Shown here: in pieces, positions 11,266-30,855 of the stretch | How positions within the stretch are numbered: position 1 is the stretch's first letter | Layout of the letters: each line of letters begins with the position of its first letter | Origin: Paludisphaera soli | GTDB taxonomy: Bacteria > Planctomycetota > Planctomycetia > Isosphaerales > Isosphaeraceae | Assembly (NCBI RefSeq): GCF_011064595.1 | Contig: NZ_JAALJI010000015.1 | Span: 62,001 to 126,000, forward strand | Reading direction: 5' to 3' | DNA length: 64,000 bases | Made by a program: the position numbers and the translations under genes | The notes under the pieces: model-generated | The model's input: the letters and a program-made list of their open reading frames with translations, nothing else | What the model was told of the DNA's origin: nothing | The model's database searches: none

Positions 11266-11339
11266 GCACCCGTAGCTCAATTGGATAGAGCGTTAGCCTC
11301 CGGAGCTAAAGGTTGCAGGTTCAAATCCTGCCGGGTGTA
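11266..11339 (+). tRNA. tRNA-Arg (anticodon CCG)
   Basis: A 74-nt cloverleaf. The acceptor strand GCACCCG pairs with CGGGTGT (G-U at the first pair). The D arm is GCTC/GAGC, the anticodon stem TTAGC/GCTAA with loop CTCCGGA giving anticodon CCG, and the T arm GCAGG TTCAAAT CCTGC, with discriminator A and no encoded CCA. It decodes CGG. Its 3' half is the left attachment site of the prophage, and integration leaves the tRNA intact. Confidence 0.95.
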
Positions 11340-11436: not shown

Positions 11437-12624
11437 ATGCCCTGGTCCCGCGACCGCACCCCCTCCTATCGCCATCACAAGGCCTCCGGGCGGGCCGTCG
11501 TCACCCTTGACGGCAAGAACATCTACCTCGGCCCCTACGGCTCCGACGAGAGCCGGGCGGCCTACGACCGCGTCGTCGCCGAGTGGCTGGCCAACGGCCG
11601 CCGCCTCGCGTCGGACGACGTCCTCACGGTCGAGATGCTGGTCTCGCGCTACCGCGCGCACGTCGAGGCCCATTACCGCTCGCGGGAGCCGGTCAACATC
11701 CGGTACGCGGTCCGGCCGGTCCGCGAGGCCTACGGGCCGACCGATGCGGCGGACTTCGGGCCGCTCGCCCTCAAGGCGATCCGCCAGCGGTTCGTCGAGG
11801 CGGGGAACTGCCGGACGATGGTCAACAAGCGCGTCCGGATGATCGTCCGGATGTTCAAGTGGGCCGTTTCGGAGCAGCTGATCCCGGCGTCGACGTGGGA
11901 GGCCCTGCGGTCCGTCGAGGGGATCCGCCGGGGCTCGAAGGGGGTCCGCGAGGCGGCCCCGGTGAAGCCGGTCCCCGACGCGTTCGTCGAGGCGACGCTC
12001 CCCCACCTGCCCCGCCAGGTCCGGGCGATGGTCGAGCTGCAGCGGCTCACCGGGGCCCGGCCGGGGGAGATCTGCATCATGCGGACGTGCGACCTGGCGA
12101 CCTCGGGCAAGGTCTGGGAGTACCGGCCGGCCGAGCACAAGACCGAGCACCACGACAAGGATCGGGTGATCTTCGTCGGCCCGGCCGCCCAGGAGGTCCT
12201 ACGCCCCTGGCTGCGGGCCGACCTCCTCGCCTACCTCTTCCAGCCCCGGGAGGCGAACGAGGAGCGCATGGCGGCCAAGCGGGCGGCCCGCAGGTCGAAG
12301 GTCCAGCCGTCCCAGGCCGACCGGAGCAAGCCGGCGCCGCTCAAGAAGCCGGGCGAACGCTACACCCCAGGCAGCTACCGCCAAGCGATCACCCGCGGCG
12401 TCCAGAAGGCCAACGCGGAACGGAAGGCGAAAGACTCCGACGCCCCGGAGGTCCCGAACTGGCACCCCCACCAGCTGCGGCACTCGGCCGCGACCGCCCT
12501 GCGGCGGGAGTTCGGGCTCGACGTCGCCCGGGCCGTGCTGGGGCACTCGTCGCCGGCGGTGACGGAGGTCTACGCCGAGCTGGACGAGGCGAAGGCCCGG
12601 GAGGCGATGGAGCGGGTGGGGTGA
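11437..12624 (+). CDS. int: Prophage tyrosine integrase
   Basis: A 395-aa site-specific recombinase. An N-terminal arm-binding-type region (to about 60) and a SAM-like core-binding domain (about 65-150) precede the catalytic domain. Catalytic residues are Arg208 (TGARPGEI), the His-x-x-Arg motif at 345-348 (HQLRH), His370 (LGHSS) and nucleophile Tyr379 (TEVYAELD). The gene lies 95 bp inside attL and reads into the element, as usual for tRNA-integrating phages. A GGAG lies upstream of the ATG. It should recombine the 45-bp core in tRNA-Arg. Confidence 0.95.
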   Translation: MPWSRDRTPSYRHHKASGRAVVTLDGKNIYLGPYGSDESRAAYDRVVAEWLANGRRLASDDVLTVEMLVSRYRAHVEAHYRSREPVNIRYAVRPVREAYGPTDAADFGPLALKAIRQRFVEAGNCRTMVNKRVRMIVRMFKWAVSEQLIPASTWEALRSVEGIRRGSKGVREAAPVKPVPDAFVEATLPHLPRQVRAMVELQRLTGARPGEICIMRTCDLATSGKVWEYRPAEHKTEHHDKDRVIFVGPAAQEVLRPWLRADLLAYLFQPREANEERMAAKRAARRSKVQPSQADRSKPAPLKKPGERYTPGSYRQAITRGVQKANAERKAKDSDAPEVPNWHPHQLRHSAATALRREFGLDVARAVLGHSSPAVTEVYAELDEAKAREAMERVG

Positions 12625-16604: not shown

Positions 16605-16958
16605 ACGCGGCATCGCGGGTTGCGCATCCTGAATAGCCTGATCGGCGTCGGATGCCTCTTCGAGCGAAACCTCTGGGACTATGTCGTCCGCCGGTTGATG
16701 TTCCGCCCGTTCACGCACTTCCAGCCGAGGAAGCCACTTCGACAGCACTTCCTCGCGCTCGGCGGACGTCATCGATAAGAACGACTCTACAAGAGCCCCG
16801 ACGCAAGGCTCGACGCCGAGCCTGCGACCAAAGTAGGTGTGCCGGTCGGCAACCTCTTGGATCCACGTGCGAAACTCGGTGTTCAGACCTCGCGGAAGTC
16901 TGACGTTCAGCTTTCCGGCGTGGGATTTCGTTCTCGCCATGACAATTAGTTTCGCCAT
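16479..16958 (-). CDS. Putative ribbon-helix-helix-type regulator
   Basis: A 159-aa protein starting MAKLIVMARTK after AAGGGG. The N-terminal segment KLNVRLPRGLNTEFRTWIQEVADR has the strand-then-two-helices pattern of a MetJ/Arc-type DNA-binding fold, and the C-terminal 45 residues are basic and low-complexity. It is divergent from another small gene of similar look, across a promoter with a perfect inverted operator pair. It could therefore be the prophage repressor. That is inference; the fold is only weakly visible. Its tail overlaps a convergent frame. Confidence 0.5.
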   Translation of the reverse strand: MAKLIVMARTKSHAGKLNVRLPRGLNTEFRTWIQEVADRHTYFGRRLGVEPCVGALVESFLSMTSAEREEVLSKWLPRLEVRERAEHQPADDIVPEVSLEEASDADQAIQDAQPAMPRSTVTRYSREFPDPPEDAGQGLHGDDAPARKPRKAPARKRGS

Positions 16959-16995
16959 AACCCCTTGGACGGTCAACAGTAAATACGGAAGTAAG

Positions 16996-17068
16996 AAAGT
17001 GCTTACTTTCCAGCTTGACTCAGAATTTGCGGCGGTTATCCTGTATCTCAATCAAAGTAAGCACTTTC
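16996..17068. promoter_or_regulatory. Inverted operator pair with promoter between divergent genes
   Basis: GAAAGTGCTTACTTT (16996-17010) and its exact reverse complement AAAGTAAGCACTTTC (17054-17068) flank a rightward promoter candidate, TTGACT (17016-17021), 16 bp, TATCCT (17038-17043). The left site also lies in its own palindrome, AAGTAAG-N6-CTTACTT. Two copies 58 bp apart in a divergent phage control region are what a lysogeny switch would show. The protein that binds is unknown. Confidence 0.7.
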
Positions 17069-17094
17069 TCACGTGCTAACCAAGGAGGTCAGCG

Positions 17095-17286
17095 ATGGCC
17101 GCGAGAGGGAAGATCCGCGTCACTCGTGATGGCGAGCGTCTGACCGCCTTCATACCGCCTGCCCTCAACGAACAAGTCCGAGTCGAGGCCGTCGTCCGCC
17201 GCGAATCCATCTCGGACGTAGTTACGCGACGCCTCTCCGACTCTTACCGGCGTGATGCAGATCTCCAACCTGCGAAGTCCGGATAA
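17095..17286 (+). CDS. Small Arc/CopG-like DNA-binding protein
   Basis: A 63-aa basic protein behind a near-perfect ribosome-binding site (AAGGAGGT). The sequence RLTAFIPPALNEQVRVEAVVRR followed by SISDVVTRRLSD fits a ribbon-helix-helix fold. It is the first gene rightward of the operator pair and leads the early region, so it may be a Cro-like or early regulator. Too short for firm family assignment. Confidence 0.55.
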   Translation: MAARGKIRVTRDGERLTAFIPPALNEQVRVEAVVRRESISDVVTRRLSDSYRRDADLQPAKSG

Positions 17287-17345
17287 ATCCTCACGAGTTG
17301 TCGGGAGCATACACCACGTTTCTTCTCGTCTATTACGAGGGAGCC

Positions 17346-20375: not shown

Positions 20376-21712
20376 AGGCGAAGCGGTGGGCGGCGTACCG
20401 GCGGATGGCGGACGGCTCGGCGAGGCTGCTGGGCGTGGTCGAGGCCGACGGGGAGAAGGCGGCGATCCGGGCGGCGATGGCCGAGCACGGGCTCGCCTGG
20501 CGGGCGGTCGCGGTCCGGATCGCCGGCGACGGCGAGCCCGCGGGCTCGATCGTGGTGGGACGGCCGGCGAGCCCGAGGCCCTGGGACGGGACGGAGCTGG
20601 TCCGGCACGAGCTGTCGGCGATGTTCCCGGACATGACGCCGGACGTGTACGGGAAGCTCGTCGAGAGCGTCCGCGAGCACGGGGCGATGAAGCCGGTCGT
20701 GCTGCACGAGGAGGCGGTACTCGACGGCTGGCACCGCTACCGGGCGTATCGCGAGGTCGGCGTCCCGTTCGACGTCGAGGACTGGAGCGGGGAGTACGGG
20801 TCGGCCCTCGCGTTCGTGCTCGCCGAGAACGAGGTCCGGCGCGACCTGACGCCCTCGCAACGGGCGGCCCTGGCGGTCGAGGTCAAGAAGCGGCTGGGGG
20901 AGGAGTATCGGGAGCGGTCGATCGCCAACCTCAAGTACAGCGGCGAAGAGGCCAAGGATCGAGTTACCAAGATTGGTAACTCGATGGCGAACGCCCAAGC
21001 CGAAGCGGCCGAGGCCCTAGGAGTTTCGAAAGGCTACGTCCACGACGCGGAGCGGATCGAGGAAACCTCTCCCCAGACGTTCGAGGCGGTCAAGCGGGGC
21101 GAGAAGACGATCCCGCAGGCCAAGCGGGAGCTGGGGCTCGACCGGCCCAAGCCGAAGGCCGAGCCGGAGCCGGAGCCCGCCCCCGAGCCGAAGGCCCCGC
21201 CGAGGACGGTGGTGAACGGCGAGGCGAGGGAGGACGCGGCGGTCGAGCGGCTGCGGGCGAAGGGGGTGATCCCGGCCGACGCCCTGGTGACGGTCGAGGA
21301 TCCGGGCGAGGACGCGACGGACCTGGAGGCGATCAAGGAGGAGCACGCCGAGCGGGCGGCGAAGGCGGACGAGCTGCCCGACGACGAGTGGCTCGCCCGG
21401 CTGCCGCTGACTTCGAAGCTGACCGGGCTGAGCCTCGACCGGTTCAAGCGGGACGCGCTCTATTACCGGCGTTTCGAGGCGATGCGTCGGAAGCTGGTCG
21501 ACTTCCACGGCCGAGCGGTGAAGGAGGTCTTCAAGGGGACGGCGTTCCGGGGCTTCGTGGCGTTCTCGGTCGCCCGGCTGCTGAAGGTCGAGCACCCCGA
21601 CCGGTGGCACCCCTGCCCGGCCGTGGACAAGGGGGGCTGCGACGGGTCCGGCACGGTCCCGATGCTCGGCGACTGCCCGATGTGCCGAGGGAGGGGGTAT
21701 CTGGCCCGATGA
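20354..21712 (+). CDS. ParB-like nuclease-domain protein with C-terminal zinc finger
   Basis: A 452-aa phage protein. Residues about 75-175 form a ParB/Srx domain (KLVESVREHGAMKPVVLHEE, VLDGWHRYRAYREVG, ENEVRRDLTPSQRAAL). A helix-turn-helix region follows (AAEALGVSKGYVHDAERI) and a Pro/Glu-rich linker. The last 35 residues hold four to six Cys (CPAVDKGGCDG, CPMCRGRG) likely to bind zinc. Similar ParB-like proteins occur in early regions of actinophages. It overlaps both neighbours. Role in replication or transcription control is inference. Confidence 0.75.
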   Translation: MSSATAMKAKRWAAYRRMADGSARLLGVVEADGEKAAIRAAMAEHGLAWRAVAVRIAGDGEPAGSIVVGRPASPRPWDGTELVRHELSAMFPDMTPDVYGKLVESVREHGAMKPVVLHEEAVLDGWHRYRAYREVGVPFDVEDWSGEYGSALAFVLAENEVRRDLTPSQRAALAVEVKKRLGEEYRERSIANLKYSGEEAKDRVTKIGNSMANAQAEAAEALGVSKGYVHDAERIEETSPQTFEAVKRGEKTIPQAKRELGLDRPKPKAEPEPEPAPEPKAPPRTVVNGEAREDAAVERLRAKGVIPADALVTVEDPGEDATDLEAIKEEHAERAAKADELPDDEWLARLPLTSKLTGLSLDRFKRDALYYRRFEAMRRKLVDFHGRAVKEVFKGTAFRGFVAFSVARLLKVEHPDRWHPCPAVDKGGCDGSGTVPMLGDCPMCRGRGYLAR

Positions 21713-23301
21713 ACGCCACCCTCCTCGCGACGCCGGAACTCGGCGAGAACACGCTCTCCCCCCGGCCGTACCAGGTCGAGGCGATCGACGCGGCCCGCGC
21801 CGCGCTGGCGGGGAAGCGGTCGACCGTGGTGATCCTCCCCACCGGGACGGGCAAGACGGTGCTGTTCGCGACGATCGTCCGCCGGGTCGTCGAGCGGGGG
21901 GGGCGGGTCCTGATTTTGGCGCATCGCGCCGAGCTGATCACGCAGGCGGCGGACACGATCGAGCGGGTGGGGGTGATGCCGGGCGTCGAACGGGCGGAGA
22001 GCTACGCGCGGTCGGCGTTCGACCCGGCCTGCGTGGTGGCGAGCGTCCAGACGCTCTCGGGGCGGAAGCGGCTCCAGTCGTGGGACCCGGACCACTTCGA
22101 CCTGATCGTGATCGACGAGGCCCATCACGCCACGGCCGAGACTTACCAACGGATCTTGAAGCACTTCCGCCGGGCGAAGGTGCTGGGGGTGACGGCGACG
22201 CCGGACCGTGCCGACGACGACGAGATCGCCGACGTGTTCGAGTCGGTCGCGTACGAGATGACGATCTGGGACGCGATGACGGCCCCCTCCCCCGGTCCTT
22301 ACCTGTCGCGGCTCAAGGTGGTCCGGTGCGAGACGCCGGTCGACCTGCGGGGGATCCGGACGACGGGGGGCGACTTCAACGCGACGGACCTGGAGGACCG
22401 GATCGGGCCGCTGGTGGAGACGCTGGCGAACGCGGTCCGCGACCAGGTGGGGGACCGTCAGACGATCGTGTTCACGCCGGACTGCGGCTCGGCCTCGGCG
22501 ATGGCGACGGCGCTGCAGAGCCTCAATTTGAGGGCCGACTACGTGTGGGGCGACTCGCCCGACCGCGAGGCGAAGGTCCGGACGTACAAGGAGGGCGACC
22601 TCCAGATCCTCTGCAACTGCATGCTCTTCACCGAGGGCTTCGACGCCCCCCGGACGTCCGCCATCGCGTTGTGCCGGCCGACGCAGAGTCGGGCCCTGTA
22701 CTCGCAGATGGTGGGACGCGGGACGCGGCTCGCCCCCGGCAAGGAGGACTGCCTCCTCGTCGACTTCGCGTGGCTGACCGACTCGATGGATCTGGTCCGG
22801 CCCGCCGACCTGTTCGACCGGTCGGACCGGGGCGACGACGAGGCCGAGGTCCTGAACGAGCTGATCGAGGCCTCGGCCGGCGCGATCGACGTCGTCGAGG
22901 CGTCGCGGCAGGCGAAGGAAGAGGCGACGCGGCGGCAGGCCGTGCGGGTCAAGGCGAAGGCACGAAAGATCGACATGCGGTGGGTCTCCTACGACCCGCT
23001 GGCGATGGCGGACACGCTGGGGATCTCGTTCCGGGGATCCTCGGCGGCCGTGCACGACCCGGCGACGCCCAAGCAGGTGGCCCGGCTGGCCGGGTTCGAC
23101 GTGGTCGAGGCGGACAAGCTGAGCCGCCGCCGGGCGTCCAAGCTGCTCGACGTGATGGTCGAGCGACGGAACAAGAACCTCGCCACGCCCAAGCAGGTGA
23201 CGTGGCTGATCAAGAAGGACGTGCCGCCGGAGCTGGCGCGCGCGATGAGCTTCCACGAGGCCAAGGCGAAGTTGGACGAGCTGTTCAACGGCCGGGGCTG
23301 A
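21709..23301 (+). CDS. SF2 DEAD/DEAH-type helicase
   Basis: A 530-aa superfamily 2 helicase starting at the ATG overlapping the preceding TGA. Motifs in order: RPYQVEAIDA (Q-like), Walker A ILPTGTGKTVLF, Ia LILAHRAEL, II VIDEAHHA, III GVTATPDR, then IV-VI including TEGFDAPRT and QMVGRGTRLAPGK. The C-terminal 130 residues carry a twofold repeat (ATPKQVARLAGFDV, ATPKQVTWLIKKDV), a small helical motif seen in related phage helicases. It is probably the replicative or recombination helicase of the phage. Confidence 0.92.
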   Translation: MNATLLATPELGENTLSPRPYQVEAIDAARAALAGKRSTVVILPTGTGKTVLFATIVRRVVERGGRVLILAHRAELITQAADTIERVGVMPGVERAESYARSAFDPACVVASVQTLSGRKRLQSWDPDHFDLIVIDEAHHATAETYQRILKHFRRAKVLGVTATPDRADDDEIADVFESVAYEMTIWDAMTAPSPGPYLSRLKVVRCETPVDLRGIRTTGGDFNATDLEDRIGPLVETLANAVRDQVGDRQTIVFTPDCGSASAMATALQSLNLRADYVWGDSPDREAKVRTYKEGDLQILCNCMLFTEGFDAPRTSAIALCRPTQSRALYSQMVGRGTRLAPGKEDCLLVDFAWLTDSMDLVRPADLFDRSDRGDDEAEVLNELIEASAGAIDVVEASRQAKEEATRRQAVRVKAKARKIDMRWVSYDPLAMADTLGISFRGSSAAVHDPATPKQVARLAGFDVVEADKLSRRRASKLLDVMVERRNKNLATPKQVTWLIKKDVPPELARAMSFHEAKAKLDELFNGRG

Positions 23302-23309
23302 CCCAAAGC

Positions 23310-23696
23310 AGTGCAACGCAGCAGAGGACAGTTCGACGACCTCGCCGCGCGTCGCGGCGGGGCGGTGGCCCCGGCCTTCCGTCAAACGGCCGGGTGATCC
23401 TCCCTAAGCGCAAGCCACGGAGGCGGGCATCGGGTTGGAACCTCCCCGAGTGACGCGAGGCCGATCGCAGGGCGGCCGAATCGACGAGCGAAACCAGCTC
23501 CCCTACGGGGGTTCCGGGCAACGGGCGGGTACTCGATCCCGCAAGCGGCTTACGTCCCGGTCGACACGCGGTGAGTCGGTGAATGAAAAGCTGGACGGTA
23601 AGCGAGTCGTAGCGTCTGCAAAGCCGGAGATCGTCGGACACGAAGCCGGGGGCCGGAACCCAATACCGCAGGGGAAAGCCGCCCGTATCGACACCC
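23310..23696 (+). ncRNA. Candidate structured RNA, possibly orphan HEARO/omega-like element
   Basis: This 390-bp stretch has no coherent frame but a composition and local structure unlike nearby spacers. Strong stems include CCCGGCC/GGCCGGG around 23372-23396 and CTCCCCTACGGGGG near 23500-23513. A purine-rich GTGAGTCGGTGAATGAAAAG follows at about 23571-23590. It ends exactly at ATGAGGAG. Layout and length recall HEARO RNAs, the guide RNAs of IscB, which sit just upstream of ATGA, yet no IscB/TnpB gene follows. Resemblance is from memory; a leader RNA or decayed gene is the alternative. Confidence 0.35.
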
Positions 23697-23714
23697 ATGA
23701 GGAGATATAGACTC

Positions 23715-24236
23715 GTGCTCTCATTAGACGCGAAATCGGTCCGGGTGGTCCTGGAGGGGACGGCGCCGTTGGTGATGGAGGTGCACCGGCTGCGGTTCGA
23801 GCGCGACGGGGACGGCCGGGTGGTGCCGGCGGCCGTGCCGATCGCCCCGGACGCGGTGGCGGCGGACTACCTGGAGACGGACGGGGACGGGCGGCCGTGC
23901 ATCGGCTGGGCCGGGCTGATCCATCGGATGGTGGCGGGGCCGGGCGAGCGGGTCGACGAGGGGACGCTGCGGCGGGACTGCGGGCTGGACGTCGAGGGGG
24001 GCCGGCTGGTGGTCGAGGGCGCCTGGATCCCCCGCCCCGTCGAGCGGCGCGGCCCGGACGGGCGGTCGTGGACGTCCTACCTGCCGGCGTTCGACGCGTG
24101 GTCCGCGTCGGGGGTGCTGCTGTACGAGCCGTCGCTCTGGACGGAGGACGAGCTGCGGCGGGCCCTGGAAGGGGCCGGGGGCGATTCGTTCCGGGTGGCG
24201 TCGTGGGAGCCGTCGCGGAAGGCGGTGGCGGCGTGA
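23715..24236 (+). CDS. Hypothetical prophage protein
   Basis: A 173-aa beta-rich protein. GTG 23715, ten bases after AGGAG, is preferred; ATG 23697 in the same frame is the alternative and abuts the candidate RNA element. It contains VVLEGTAPLVMEVHRLRFERD and IGWAGLIHRMVAGPGE and a Trp-rich C-terminus. No family is recognised. Its stop overlaps the next GTG. Confidence 0.55.
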   Translation: MLSLDAKSVRVVLEGTAPLVMEVHRLRFERDGDGRVVPAAVPIAPDAVAADYLETDGDGRPCIGWAGLIHRMVAGPGERVDEGTLRRDCGLDVEGGRLVVEGAWIPRPVERRGPDGRSWTSYLPAFDAWSASGVLLYEPSLWTEDELRRALEGAGGDSFRVASWEPSRKAVAA

Positions 24237-25424: not shown

Positions 25425-25737
25425 TTTACATGCATGCACTTTGCCCGGCAGAATGCGCATGCATGCAGATTTCACATAGGGGGTTGTGAATATGTTGAAA
25501 AGCGGGAGACGCAGACCGCCGGAGGTAAGTCGATCGCGAATTTCCCGGCAATTGCGAGGGCAAATTGTCTTCCCCCTTCCTGGCCCGGTTCCGGAATCAG
25601 CGCCGGGACGGCGTCGGGACCTCGGCCCAAGTACTGCGGAACGCTCGAACATTTTTTTATCTGGTGACGCTTGAACGGCTTGCGTCGCCCCGTTCGAGGC
25701 CGATCGGACATTCGTGTTCCATAGGGGTGCTTTCACG
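25425..25737. other. Lower-GC intergenic region with paired palindromes
   Basis: A 313-bp spacer of lower GC between early and middle genes. Two perfect TGCATGCA palindromes (25431-25438 and 25460-25467) lie just after the nuclease gene; a T-run (TTTTTTTAT) is near 25651. A 60-residue frame from about 25486 is Arg/Pro-rich and not convincing. The spacer may hold the promoter for the next block or a replication origin; neither is shown. Confidence 0.4.
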
Positions 25738-25974
25738 ATGCTCGCGACGAAAGCGGGGGTCAGCGTTCTTGCTTCCAAGCCGCAACGTAGGCGGTGGCGT
25801 CCCGAGGAGATCGACCGTGCGAGGGATCTGAGCATGTTGTCCATGCGGCGGCAGGGCATCCCGCTCTCTGTGATCGCCGAGGTTTTCAACGTCGCCAAGT
25901 CGACCGTCTGCCGGCGGCTCGCGGCGATCCCCGAGGATGCGAGGGCTCACTATGCCGGCCGGGGCTTGGTCTGA
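25738..25974 (+). CDS. Helix-turn-helix regulator, small
   Basis: A 78-aa protein. RRRWRPEEIDRARDLSMLS followed by RQGIPLSVIAEVFNVAKSTV, then CRRLAAIP, is a clear helix-turn-helix (recognition helix around KSTVCRRL) like those in resolvases and sigma region 4. It stands at the head of the rightward middle/late gene block, after the largest early spacer, and so is a candidate late-gene activator. Its stop overlaps the next gene by 23 bp. Confidence 0.65.
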   Translation: MLATKAGVSVLASKPQRRRWRPEEIDRARDLSMLSMRRQGIPLSVIAEVFNVAKSTVCRRLAAIPEDARAHYAGRGLV

Positions 25975-30401: not shown

Positions 30402-30855
30402 CGCGGGCCCGTTCGCGGCGGTCCGGCAGGGGGGCGAGCCTCCGAAGCCGGACACGATCGCGGCCGACCCGATCGCCTCGGCGATCTGGGATCGGACGGT
30501 CTCGCTCCTCATGGACCGACGCGTCCTCTCGCCGGCCGACGAGGGCGTCCTAGTCGCCTACTGCTCGGCTTATGCGACGGTGACGCGGGTTCGCGACTTG
30601 ATGCGGGGCCGGGACCTGGTCGTCACGAACTTCAAGACGGGGGCGGTCAAGGCCCATCCGCTGCTCGGGGTCCTGAGCGGGGCCGAGCGGTCGTTGCACT
30701 CGTTCGCGGGGACGCTCGGATTGACTCCTACCGATCGGGGGCGGGTCGAGGTCATCGGCGACGGCGAGGCCGGCTTGTCGAAGCTGGAGCAACTCAATGC
30801 CGCCGCAATCGCGAATCGAAATCGCTTCCTTCGATCCGGTTCGGAACAAGGCTGA
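30334..30855 (+). CDS. terS: Terminase small subunit, P27 family
   Basis: A 173-aa DNA-packaging subunit. The N-terminal signature GRKPDPPKLKILKANAGRD is typical of P27 proteins, followed by a helical core (SAIWDRTVSLLMDRRVLSPA) and the conserved GVLSGAERSLHSFAGTLGLTPTDR block. It should recognise the packaging site and recruit the large subunit encoded next. The gene overlaps the large-terminase start by 59 bp. Confidence 0.9.
   Translation: MAKRGRKPDPPKLKILKANAGRDAGPFAAVRQGGEPPKPDTIAADPIASAIWDRTVSLLMDRRVLSPADEGVLVAYCSAYATVTRVRDLMRGRDLVVTNFKTGAVKAHPLLGVLSGAERSLHSFAGTLGLTPTDRGRVEVIGDGEAGLSKLEQLNAAAIANRNRFLRSGSEQG

Follow-up and report, generated by a model that had tools for sequence, protein, structure and literature searches.

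To our knowledge, few large and well-conserved RNAs still lack a known role, and such RNAs, once solved, have proved to be ribozymes, guides, sensors or cages. Two that are carried by phages, GOLLD and ROOL, form homo-oligomeric cages and are often found near tRNA islands (PMC12286853). Here we describe an RNA carried by a prophage of Paludisphaera soli. The window that we analyzed is a stretch of 64,000 nucleotides (assembly GCF_011064595.1, contig NZ_JAALJI010000015.1, positions 62,001 to 126,000), and all coordinates given below are those of this stretch unless another locus is named. The interval between a helicase gene and the next gene is a 395-base element on the plus strand (23302-23696). 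These outer bounds are set by the end of the helicase gene and by the ribosome-binding site that follows, and the ends of the mature RNA may lie further in. The original prediction, made from the sequence alone, took this region for a structured, stand-alone RNA, perhaps an orphan HEARO or omega RNA, the guide of IscB nucleases. The structured RNA on a phage is borne out, since its helices covary across a family of which the element is almost certainly one copy, while the HEARO identity is not.

A non-coding RNA family with a covarying core hairpin

Two open reading frames run across all or part of the gap, one on the minus strand (23285-23698, 137 aa) and one on the plus strand (23435-23710, 91 aa). 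Both are interrupted by stops in the same-genus relatives L003 and L004, so the homologous loci are not coding and the gap is gene-free, as had been claimed. The L003 copy is 77% identical over query bases 59-324 and likewise follows a helicase gene, while the L004 copy (69%) is found at a different genomic place. Six other matches of this search, of 28-38 bases in the GC-rich 5' hairpin, were left uncounted. A six-frame check of 118 copies found at most 13 open through any single frame. The element is non-coding. The purine-rich run that had been pointed out as conserved-looking (GTGAATGAAAAGCTGG, 23579-23594) does recur, as TGAATGAAAAGG in L003 and as AAATCAAAAGCTGG in L004.

Applying a rule on the outer stem, we collected 158 copies of the RNA, of which 122 were distinct (106 viral contigs and 16 genomes, window included). 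A 24-base core pattern matched 6 viral stretches and 1 named genome, a wider pattern 97 viral stretches and a second pattern 113, these sets overlapping. The core hairpin, P4, is located in the window at 23514-23560 (CCGGG-CA-ACG-G-GCGGG-TACTCGAT-CCCGC-...-CGT-CCCGG) and was studied by pair counts in an alignment (A1) of 75 distinct cores, L069, near-end and identical cores having been dropped beforehand. Standard pairs filled 99.3% of the 972 cells versus 85.5% (sd 0.6) in shuffled alignments. Double changes affected 8 of the 13 pairs, with 119 double-changed cells versus 24.7 in the shuffles, and none of 500 shuffles reached this number. When the columns were slid by 1-3 positions, the paired cells fell to 29-44%. 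The P4 hairpin covaries, which answers the covariation check proposed in the original prediction.

A covariance model of the core (R1) recovered 40 of 42 new loci of the second pattern (28/28 and 12/14) with 34.5-66.4 bits. The window core scores 68.3 bits, being itself part of the set from which R1 was built. R1 gave no match in the pattern loci L146, L149, L033 and L035. These four were left out of the counts, as were the copies of the window itself (L001, L002 and L017), and L115-L117 (28-33 bits) were not counted as members.

The covariation is the evidence for structure. The 'strong stems' of the original prediction are no evidence, as the minimum free energy of the element resembles that of shuffled sequences (plus strand z 0.17, with 54 of 100 shuffles equally good; minus strand z 0.91), and we discarded this folding as a test, uninformative on both strands. 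Given 27 loci in a plain alignment, RNAalifold returned P4, one 5' helix, one short hairpin and little else, because pseudoknots and variable spacers defeat it.

Two long-range helices around the core

The helices and motifs of the family follow the order P3 5' strand, P4 hairpin, P5 5' strand, A-rich joint, P3 3' strand, variable region, P5 3' strand and GGGAAGCC. The 5' strand of P3 stands just before P4 and its 3' strand beyond the 5' strand of P5, whose own 3' strand lies just before GGGA. To evaluate these helices we compared duplexes within each locus with duplexes across loci, a better test than helix search in single loci. For P5 the values were -11.6 within versus -5.6 kcal/mol across loci (n=59), and for P3, in the variant with GAAA, -14.8 versus -7.5 kcal/mol (n=35). 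In both cases none of 2000 permutations reached the observed value, and the locus' own partner ranked best of all in 17/59 (P5) and 17/35 (P3). In an alignment of 17 sequences (A2), double changes were found in 3 of 4 P3 pairs and 2 of 5 P5 pairs. The whole structure had 98.1% of 363 cells paired; its covariation score was reached by none of 500 shuffles and its number of pair types by 67 of 500. On this comparative evidence P3 and P5 interlock around P4 as a double pseudoknot.

The single-locus searches reached p 0.05 or better for P5 in 31 of 69 loci (from 76, of which four lacked the 3' anchor and three were too short). For P3 the figure was 11 of 58, after exclusion of one locus too short and of 17 in which the joint motif was not found, the window among them. 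In the search for the P3 variant with the hairpin P3a it was 8 of 27, with 16 loci set aside for want of the motif and 33 because a suitable hairpin was missing or the sequence was too short.

The family has two variants. In the first, GAAA precedes P4 and the P3 3' strand follows the UAAG joint, as appears to be the case in 42 of the 122 copies. In the second, to which the window belongs, an extra hairpin, P3a, precedes P4 and the P3 3' strand stands before GTATAAG. In the window, P3 was placed by family position, with CCAGCT (23494-23499) facing AGCTGG (23589-23594), which is followed by GGTAAGC (family motif GTATAAG/ACTAAG). P3a (CCCC TAC GGGG, 23500-23510) takes the place of the GAAA of the other variant. 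P5, also placed by position, pairs GCGGT (23568-23572) with ACCGC (23665-23669) across P3. Then comes the 3' motif AGGGGAAAGCC (23670-23680; in the family [A]GGGAAGCC). Of the 118 copies in which the sequence extends far enough, 112 have a GGGA-type 3' motif by a loose pattern.

The arrangement P3 5' - P4 - P5 5' - P3 3' - P5 3' resembles, in helix order, the core of group I introns, with P3/P7 placed around P4-P6. This order, together with the invariant core and the A-rich joint between P5 and P3, would suit a distant or degenerate group I relative that cleaves or ligates RNA, with no exons here. We regard such a ribozyme as clearly unlikely: searches at E 10 of the window region and of 11 other loci gave no group I match, the RNA lies between genes, and the guanosine-site sequences of group I introns were not seen by eye.

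The structure could also form in single-stranded DNA, as an origin, attachment or packaging site. The RNA is found on mobile elements, next to an integrase-like gene in L192, L189 and L201 and next to a helicase in many phages, and G-U pairs are rare in P4 (7 of 972 cells in the 75-sequence count), all of which would fit a DNA element. However, over P3, P4 and P5, G-U mismatches outnumber A-C mismatches 44 to 17 in helix searches that reward neither kind. An RNA read from this strand would be expected to show such an excess. Its sources are P4 (15 to 2) and, for P3, the search made beyond the joint (20 to 9), and we attach no probability to it because the copies are related. Besides, the conserved GAAA- and UAAG-like joints look like RNA, and the cumulative GC skew of the phage turns at about 18.2 kb and not at the RNA, for which reason a replication origin at this place was rejected. 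Overall we consider a DNA element very unlikely.

Search for known RNA families and for a guide RNA

With Rfam 15 at the gathering threshold there was no match on the RNA in the window (one tRNA elsewhere), nor on the RNA in 7 loci, in the 15 RNA-bearing of 17 loci or in 18 more loci (two tRNAs elsewhere). The RNA is thus new as a class in the sense that it matches no Rfam family at threshold. Allowing E up to 10, four matches appeared in 23200-23800 (E 0.33-3.4) and eleven in 11 other loci, one of the eleven being a tRNA just after the RNA in L094; none in either set was HEARO or group I. A YrlA match lay over P4 on the minus strand with 16.5 bits versus a cut-off of 69, and short sR30 and PhotoRC-I matches stood at equal relative places in L037 and L060, which have a common core. 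We regard these sub-threshold matches as chance. Among the papers listed by our literature searches none describes this RNA, and a text search for core strings returned only an unrelated paper; earlier publication, notably in subscription journals or preprints, is possible.

The HEARO model (RF02033) found nothing in the window at the gathering threshold (83 bits) and nothing in the region at E 10. As a control, it scored 108.8 and 114.6 bits upstream of the IscB genes in L011 and L012, two genomes of the same family, so that the test works and the RNA of the window fails it. Conversely, R1 gave at best 11.6 bits (E 0.047) at these two HEARO loci and the core is absent there. An RF02033 search of the host's own genome was empty too, although this is uninformative alone since control genomes were also unmatched. 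IscB (PF14239), which the original prediction proposed to look for in the host as a partner in trans, was not found in the host genome or in five genus mates (2 of 59 relatives match), and TnpB (PF07282) was not found in the host genome (6 of 14 control genomes match).

The element does end literally at ATGAGGAG, as had been noted, but as a sign of HEARO this end fails: ATGA at 23697 runs into the Shine-Dalgarno sequence of the next gene (AGGAG, 23700-23704, plus strand) and is not kept in L003 and L004, which have different sequence after the 3' motif of the RNA. The term ATGA does not occur in PMC9755519. With no RF02033 match, no adjacent IscB or IsrB and no kept ATGA end, a HEARO or omega RNA is not supported. 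There is still the broader form of the idea, an orphan guide RNA used in trans by some nuclease. It would be in keeping with a structured RNA that stands alone on mobile DNA and has HNH genes downstream in some loci. Nevertheless, besides the missing HEARO match and nucleases, every other host match of the 20-nt 3' tail has at least 3 mismatches, and the largest HNH family matches just 5 of 88 downstream proteins, which makes a guide hardly credible.

Distribution across phages and integrative islands

We sampled 397 genomes of the host's class, from 185 genera. With a cut-off of E 1e-5, 25 genomes from 18 genera matched, and three of these genomes had two copies. A sample of the phylum gave 7 matching genomes out of 392 at E 1e-3. 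Four of these were strong (48-68 bits) and belonged to the host's class, and the other three (28-33 bits) are doubtful. The strict pattern, run over 84,980 species genomes, matched only in Lacipirellula (Lacipirellula limnantheis), although this pattern fits just 7 of our 122 copies and the scanned genomes may lack records close to the window. Proteins near same-class copies match DUF1559, DUF1501 and the Rhodopirellula transposase domain. The carriers are probably phages and islands of Planctomycetia bacteria. The core of L048, a single query and hence a weak test of wider databases, matched nothing in GenBank phages, in the plasmids of PLSDB or in E. coli at E 1. By blastn the window element gave 25 records in GenBank phages, and the 20 listed were all short, with E 1-5.

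The RNA is found on different mobile elements, temperate phages as well as islands that carry genes for an integrase or for type I restriction. We examined 20 chromosomal stretches and dropped four (L194, L199, L200 and L203) in which the core was not found by regular expression. Relatives of the TerL and portal genes of the window's phage accompany the RNA in L188 and L197, a relative of its integrase in L184 and L195, and an integrase-like gene in L189, L192 and L201. PF00589 matched 4 of 77 proteins, the assignment to loci being made through similarity clusters. L192 and L189 have in common a small Xis-like gene (by eye), the RNA (80.5% over 359 bases), the integrase-like gene (75%) and little else. 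Type I restriction-modification genes are present in 4 of the 16 stretches with a located core (L189, L191, L201 and L202); as the window's phage does not show them, we regard this link as cargo. In L201 and L202 a presumed HsdR, identified by eye, ends 275-276 nt before the P4 core; the scan covered proteins below 1000 aa and hence not this one. The RNA copies of L185 and L186 are followed, at distances of about 1.8 and 3.8 kb, by ArdC-like anti-restriction genes (PF08401, 2 of 77 proteins).

The prophage and the remaining parts of the window copy

The window comes from a bacterial contig and holds an integrated phage, at about 11.3-46 kb. These ends are an estimate with which the IMG/VR contig of the same phage (L017, 34,767 bases) agrees. 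A tyrosine-type integrase (11437-12624) lies beside a tRNA gene (11266-11339), and the prophage also codes for a Rad52-like protein, a Prim-Pol primase, a ParB-like protein, a ResIII/DEAD helicase, an endonuclease, TerL, portal and major head protein. The RNA sits in the replication module. The helicase gene (phrog_16, 21709-23301, plus strand) is directly upstream, and downstream there is an orphan gene on the same strand (23715-24236) with no PHROG and no Pfam match at E 0.001, whose start codon is probably the GTG at 23715. The genes are indeed packed as the original prediction had stated, with 15 of 42 junctions overlapping and 24 of 42 below 20 bp. The gap itself is not unique: in the region 16.4-46.2 kb, five gaps between called genes, this one included, measure at least 150 bp. 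Further gaps between called genes of the phage are found at 16605-17345 (741 bp), 25425-25833 (409 bp) and 30402-30796 (395 bp).

Upstream of the pseudoknot, the window copy has two 5' hairpins, one of 10 bp (CCTCGCCGCG/CGCGGCGGGG, 23340-23362, located by sequence and coordinates) and one drawn by eye (CCCGGCC/GGCCGGG, 23370-23394; CCCGGC/GCCGGG at the same place in L003). Next is an arm, also by eye, in which CCTCC (23399-23403) can pair with GGAGG (23419-23423); its counterparts, again by eye, are CCTTC/GAAGG in L003 and CCTCC/GGAGG in L004. The P2 hairpin (TCGGG/CCCGA, 23430-23449) bears the loop TTGGAACCTC. In the family, the P2 loop TTNNAA[G/C]CTC is kept on changing stems (12 copies). 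The pattern occurs in 19 of the 122 copies, 7 of which pair 3 bp or less and are probably chance.

Neighboring genes

We listed 112 upstream and 124 downstream neighbor proteins and scanned 71 and 87 of them, plus one window gene on each side. The commonest upstream family was the phrog_16 helicase (14 of 72, window's included) and no downstream family exceeded 5 of 88. Among the proteins scanned there is no constant neighbor. In 76 gene-called loci, 34 had both neighbors oriented with the RNA, 9 both opposite, 15 were mixed and 18 lacked a neighbor, counts that are approximate because our home-made gene caller put the L003 helicase on the wrong strand. We have checked two of the loci with opposite neighbors. 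In L092 a methyltransferase and a cysteine dioxygenase, both on the opposite strand, flank the RNA. In L046 both called neighbors are opposite, a methyltransferase downstream and an unassigned gene upstream. Copies antisense to both neighbors make the RNA look free-standing.

We ran ARAGORN on 60 RNA-bearing viral loci of 2-15 kb, and in 7 it made a tRNA or tmRNA call. In one RNA-bearing viral contig, L090, it calls a tmRNA-like gene at 1992-2298, and L094 has two tRNA genes, one of them just after the RNA.

Possible function and comparison with described RNAs

Our preferred explanation, a new family of free-standing structured RNAs of phages and integrative islands that acts in trans on a host factor, is in our view about evenly balanced, and the narrower statement that the RNA is trans-acting and binds such a factor stands, in our judgement, equally in the balance. 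A conserved fold on elements in which no common protein was found suggests that the partner comes from the host, or else that the RNA itself is active. Should the RNA prove confined to one class, this would favor a host partner. The early-module position in this and other phages, together with the nearness to integration genes in some islands, suggests a role in establishing or moving the element. Specifically, the RNA would be transcribed on its own or cut from an early replication transcript, and would fold into a compact globule. Its conserved surface, with the loop TANTYGAT, the CA bulge, the UAAG joint and the GGGAAGCC tail as the putative binding face, may bind a factor common to these hosts, and this binding may help the element to establish, replicate or evade defence.

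Several observations weigh against this explanation. The host factor is a hypothesis, and confinement to one class was seen in samples and with a single narrow pattern. With both neighbors co-oriented in 34 of 76 loci, some copies may act in cis. Near the window copy we found no consensus of a promoter or terminator, although the sigma-70 consensus may not suit the host. Neither in P5 (5 to 3) nor in the remaining P3 search (4 to 3) is there a G-U excess worth mentioning, and 83 other mismatches occur in the P3, P4 and P5 count. Finally, in the window alone neither P3 (6 bp) nor P5 (5 bp) is significant (P5 p 0.35; the P3 search picked a different pairing, p 0.58). They are too short to be so, which is why they were placed by position. 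A bolder proposal is an undescribed RNA class with a group-I-like double-pseudoknot core, either a ribozyme or an all-purpose host-takeover RNA, common to otherwise unrelated phages and restriction-bearing islands of one class. We offer it tentatively, as a possibility less probable than the trans-acting RNA. In any case, 122 distinct, strongly covarying copies on the mobile DNA of a class whose phages are little studied make this RNA relevant, and its presence in sequenced bacterial genomes as prophage or island makes it amenable to immediate transcription, probing and deletion work.

Among described RNAs, the HEARO or omega RNA of IscB (RF02033) is also structured, of a few hundred nucleotides and located on mobile DNA. 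The window RNA differs in having neither a covariance match nor an IscB found, and in a core that is absent from two HEARO loci. Group I introns (RF00028) are alike in the order of interlocking helices, while here there is no match at E 10 and no interrupted gene. The DUF3800-IX RNA (RF02968) occurs on the same phage contig L094 but at a separate place (1939-2002, versus 1645-1696 for the RNA core). As for GOLLD and ROOL, the window RNA is smaller, at most 395 nt versus 659 nt and over 800 nt, lacks an Rfam match to either in the loci given to Rfam, and is rarely accompanied by a called tRNA or tmRNA gene, the window copy being in the replication module. For these reasons an RNA-only scaffold or cage of their sort, which would self-assemble and enclose or sequester something, is unlikely, if less so than a ribozyme. 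The habit is nevertheless the same: like them (PMC12286853), and likewise with no known protein partner or function, this RNA is carried by phages and prophages, free-standing, non-coding and pseudoknotted.
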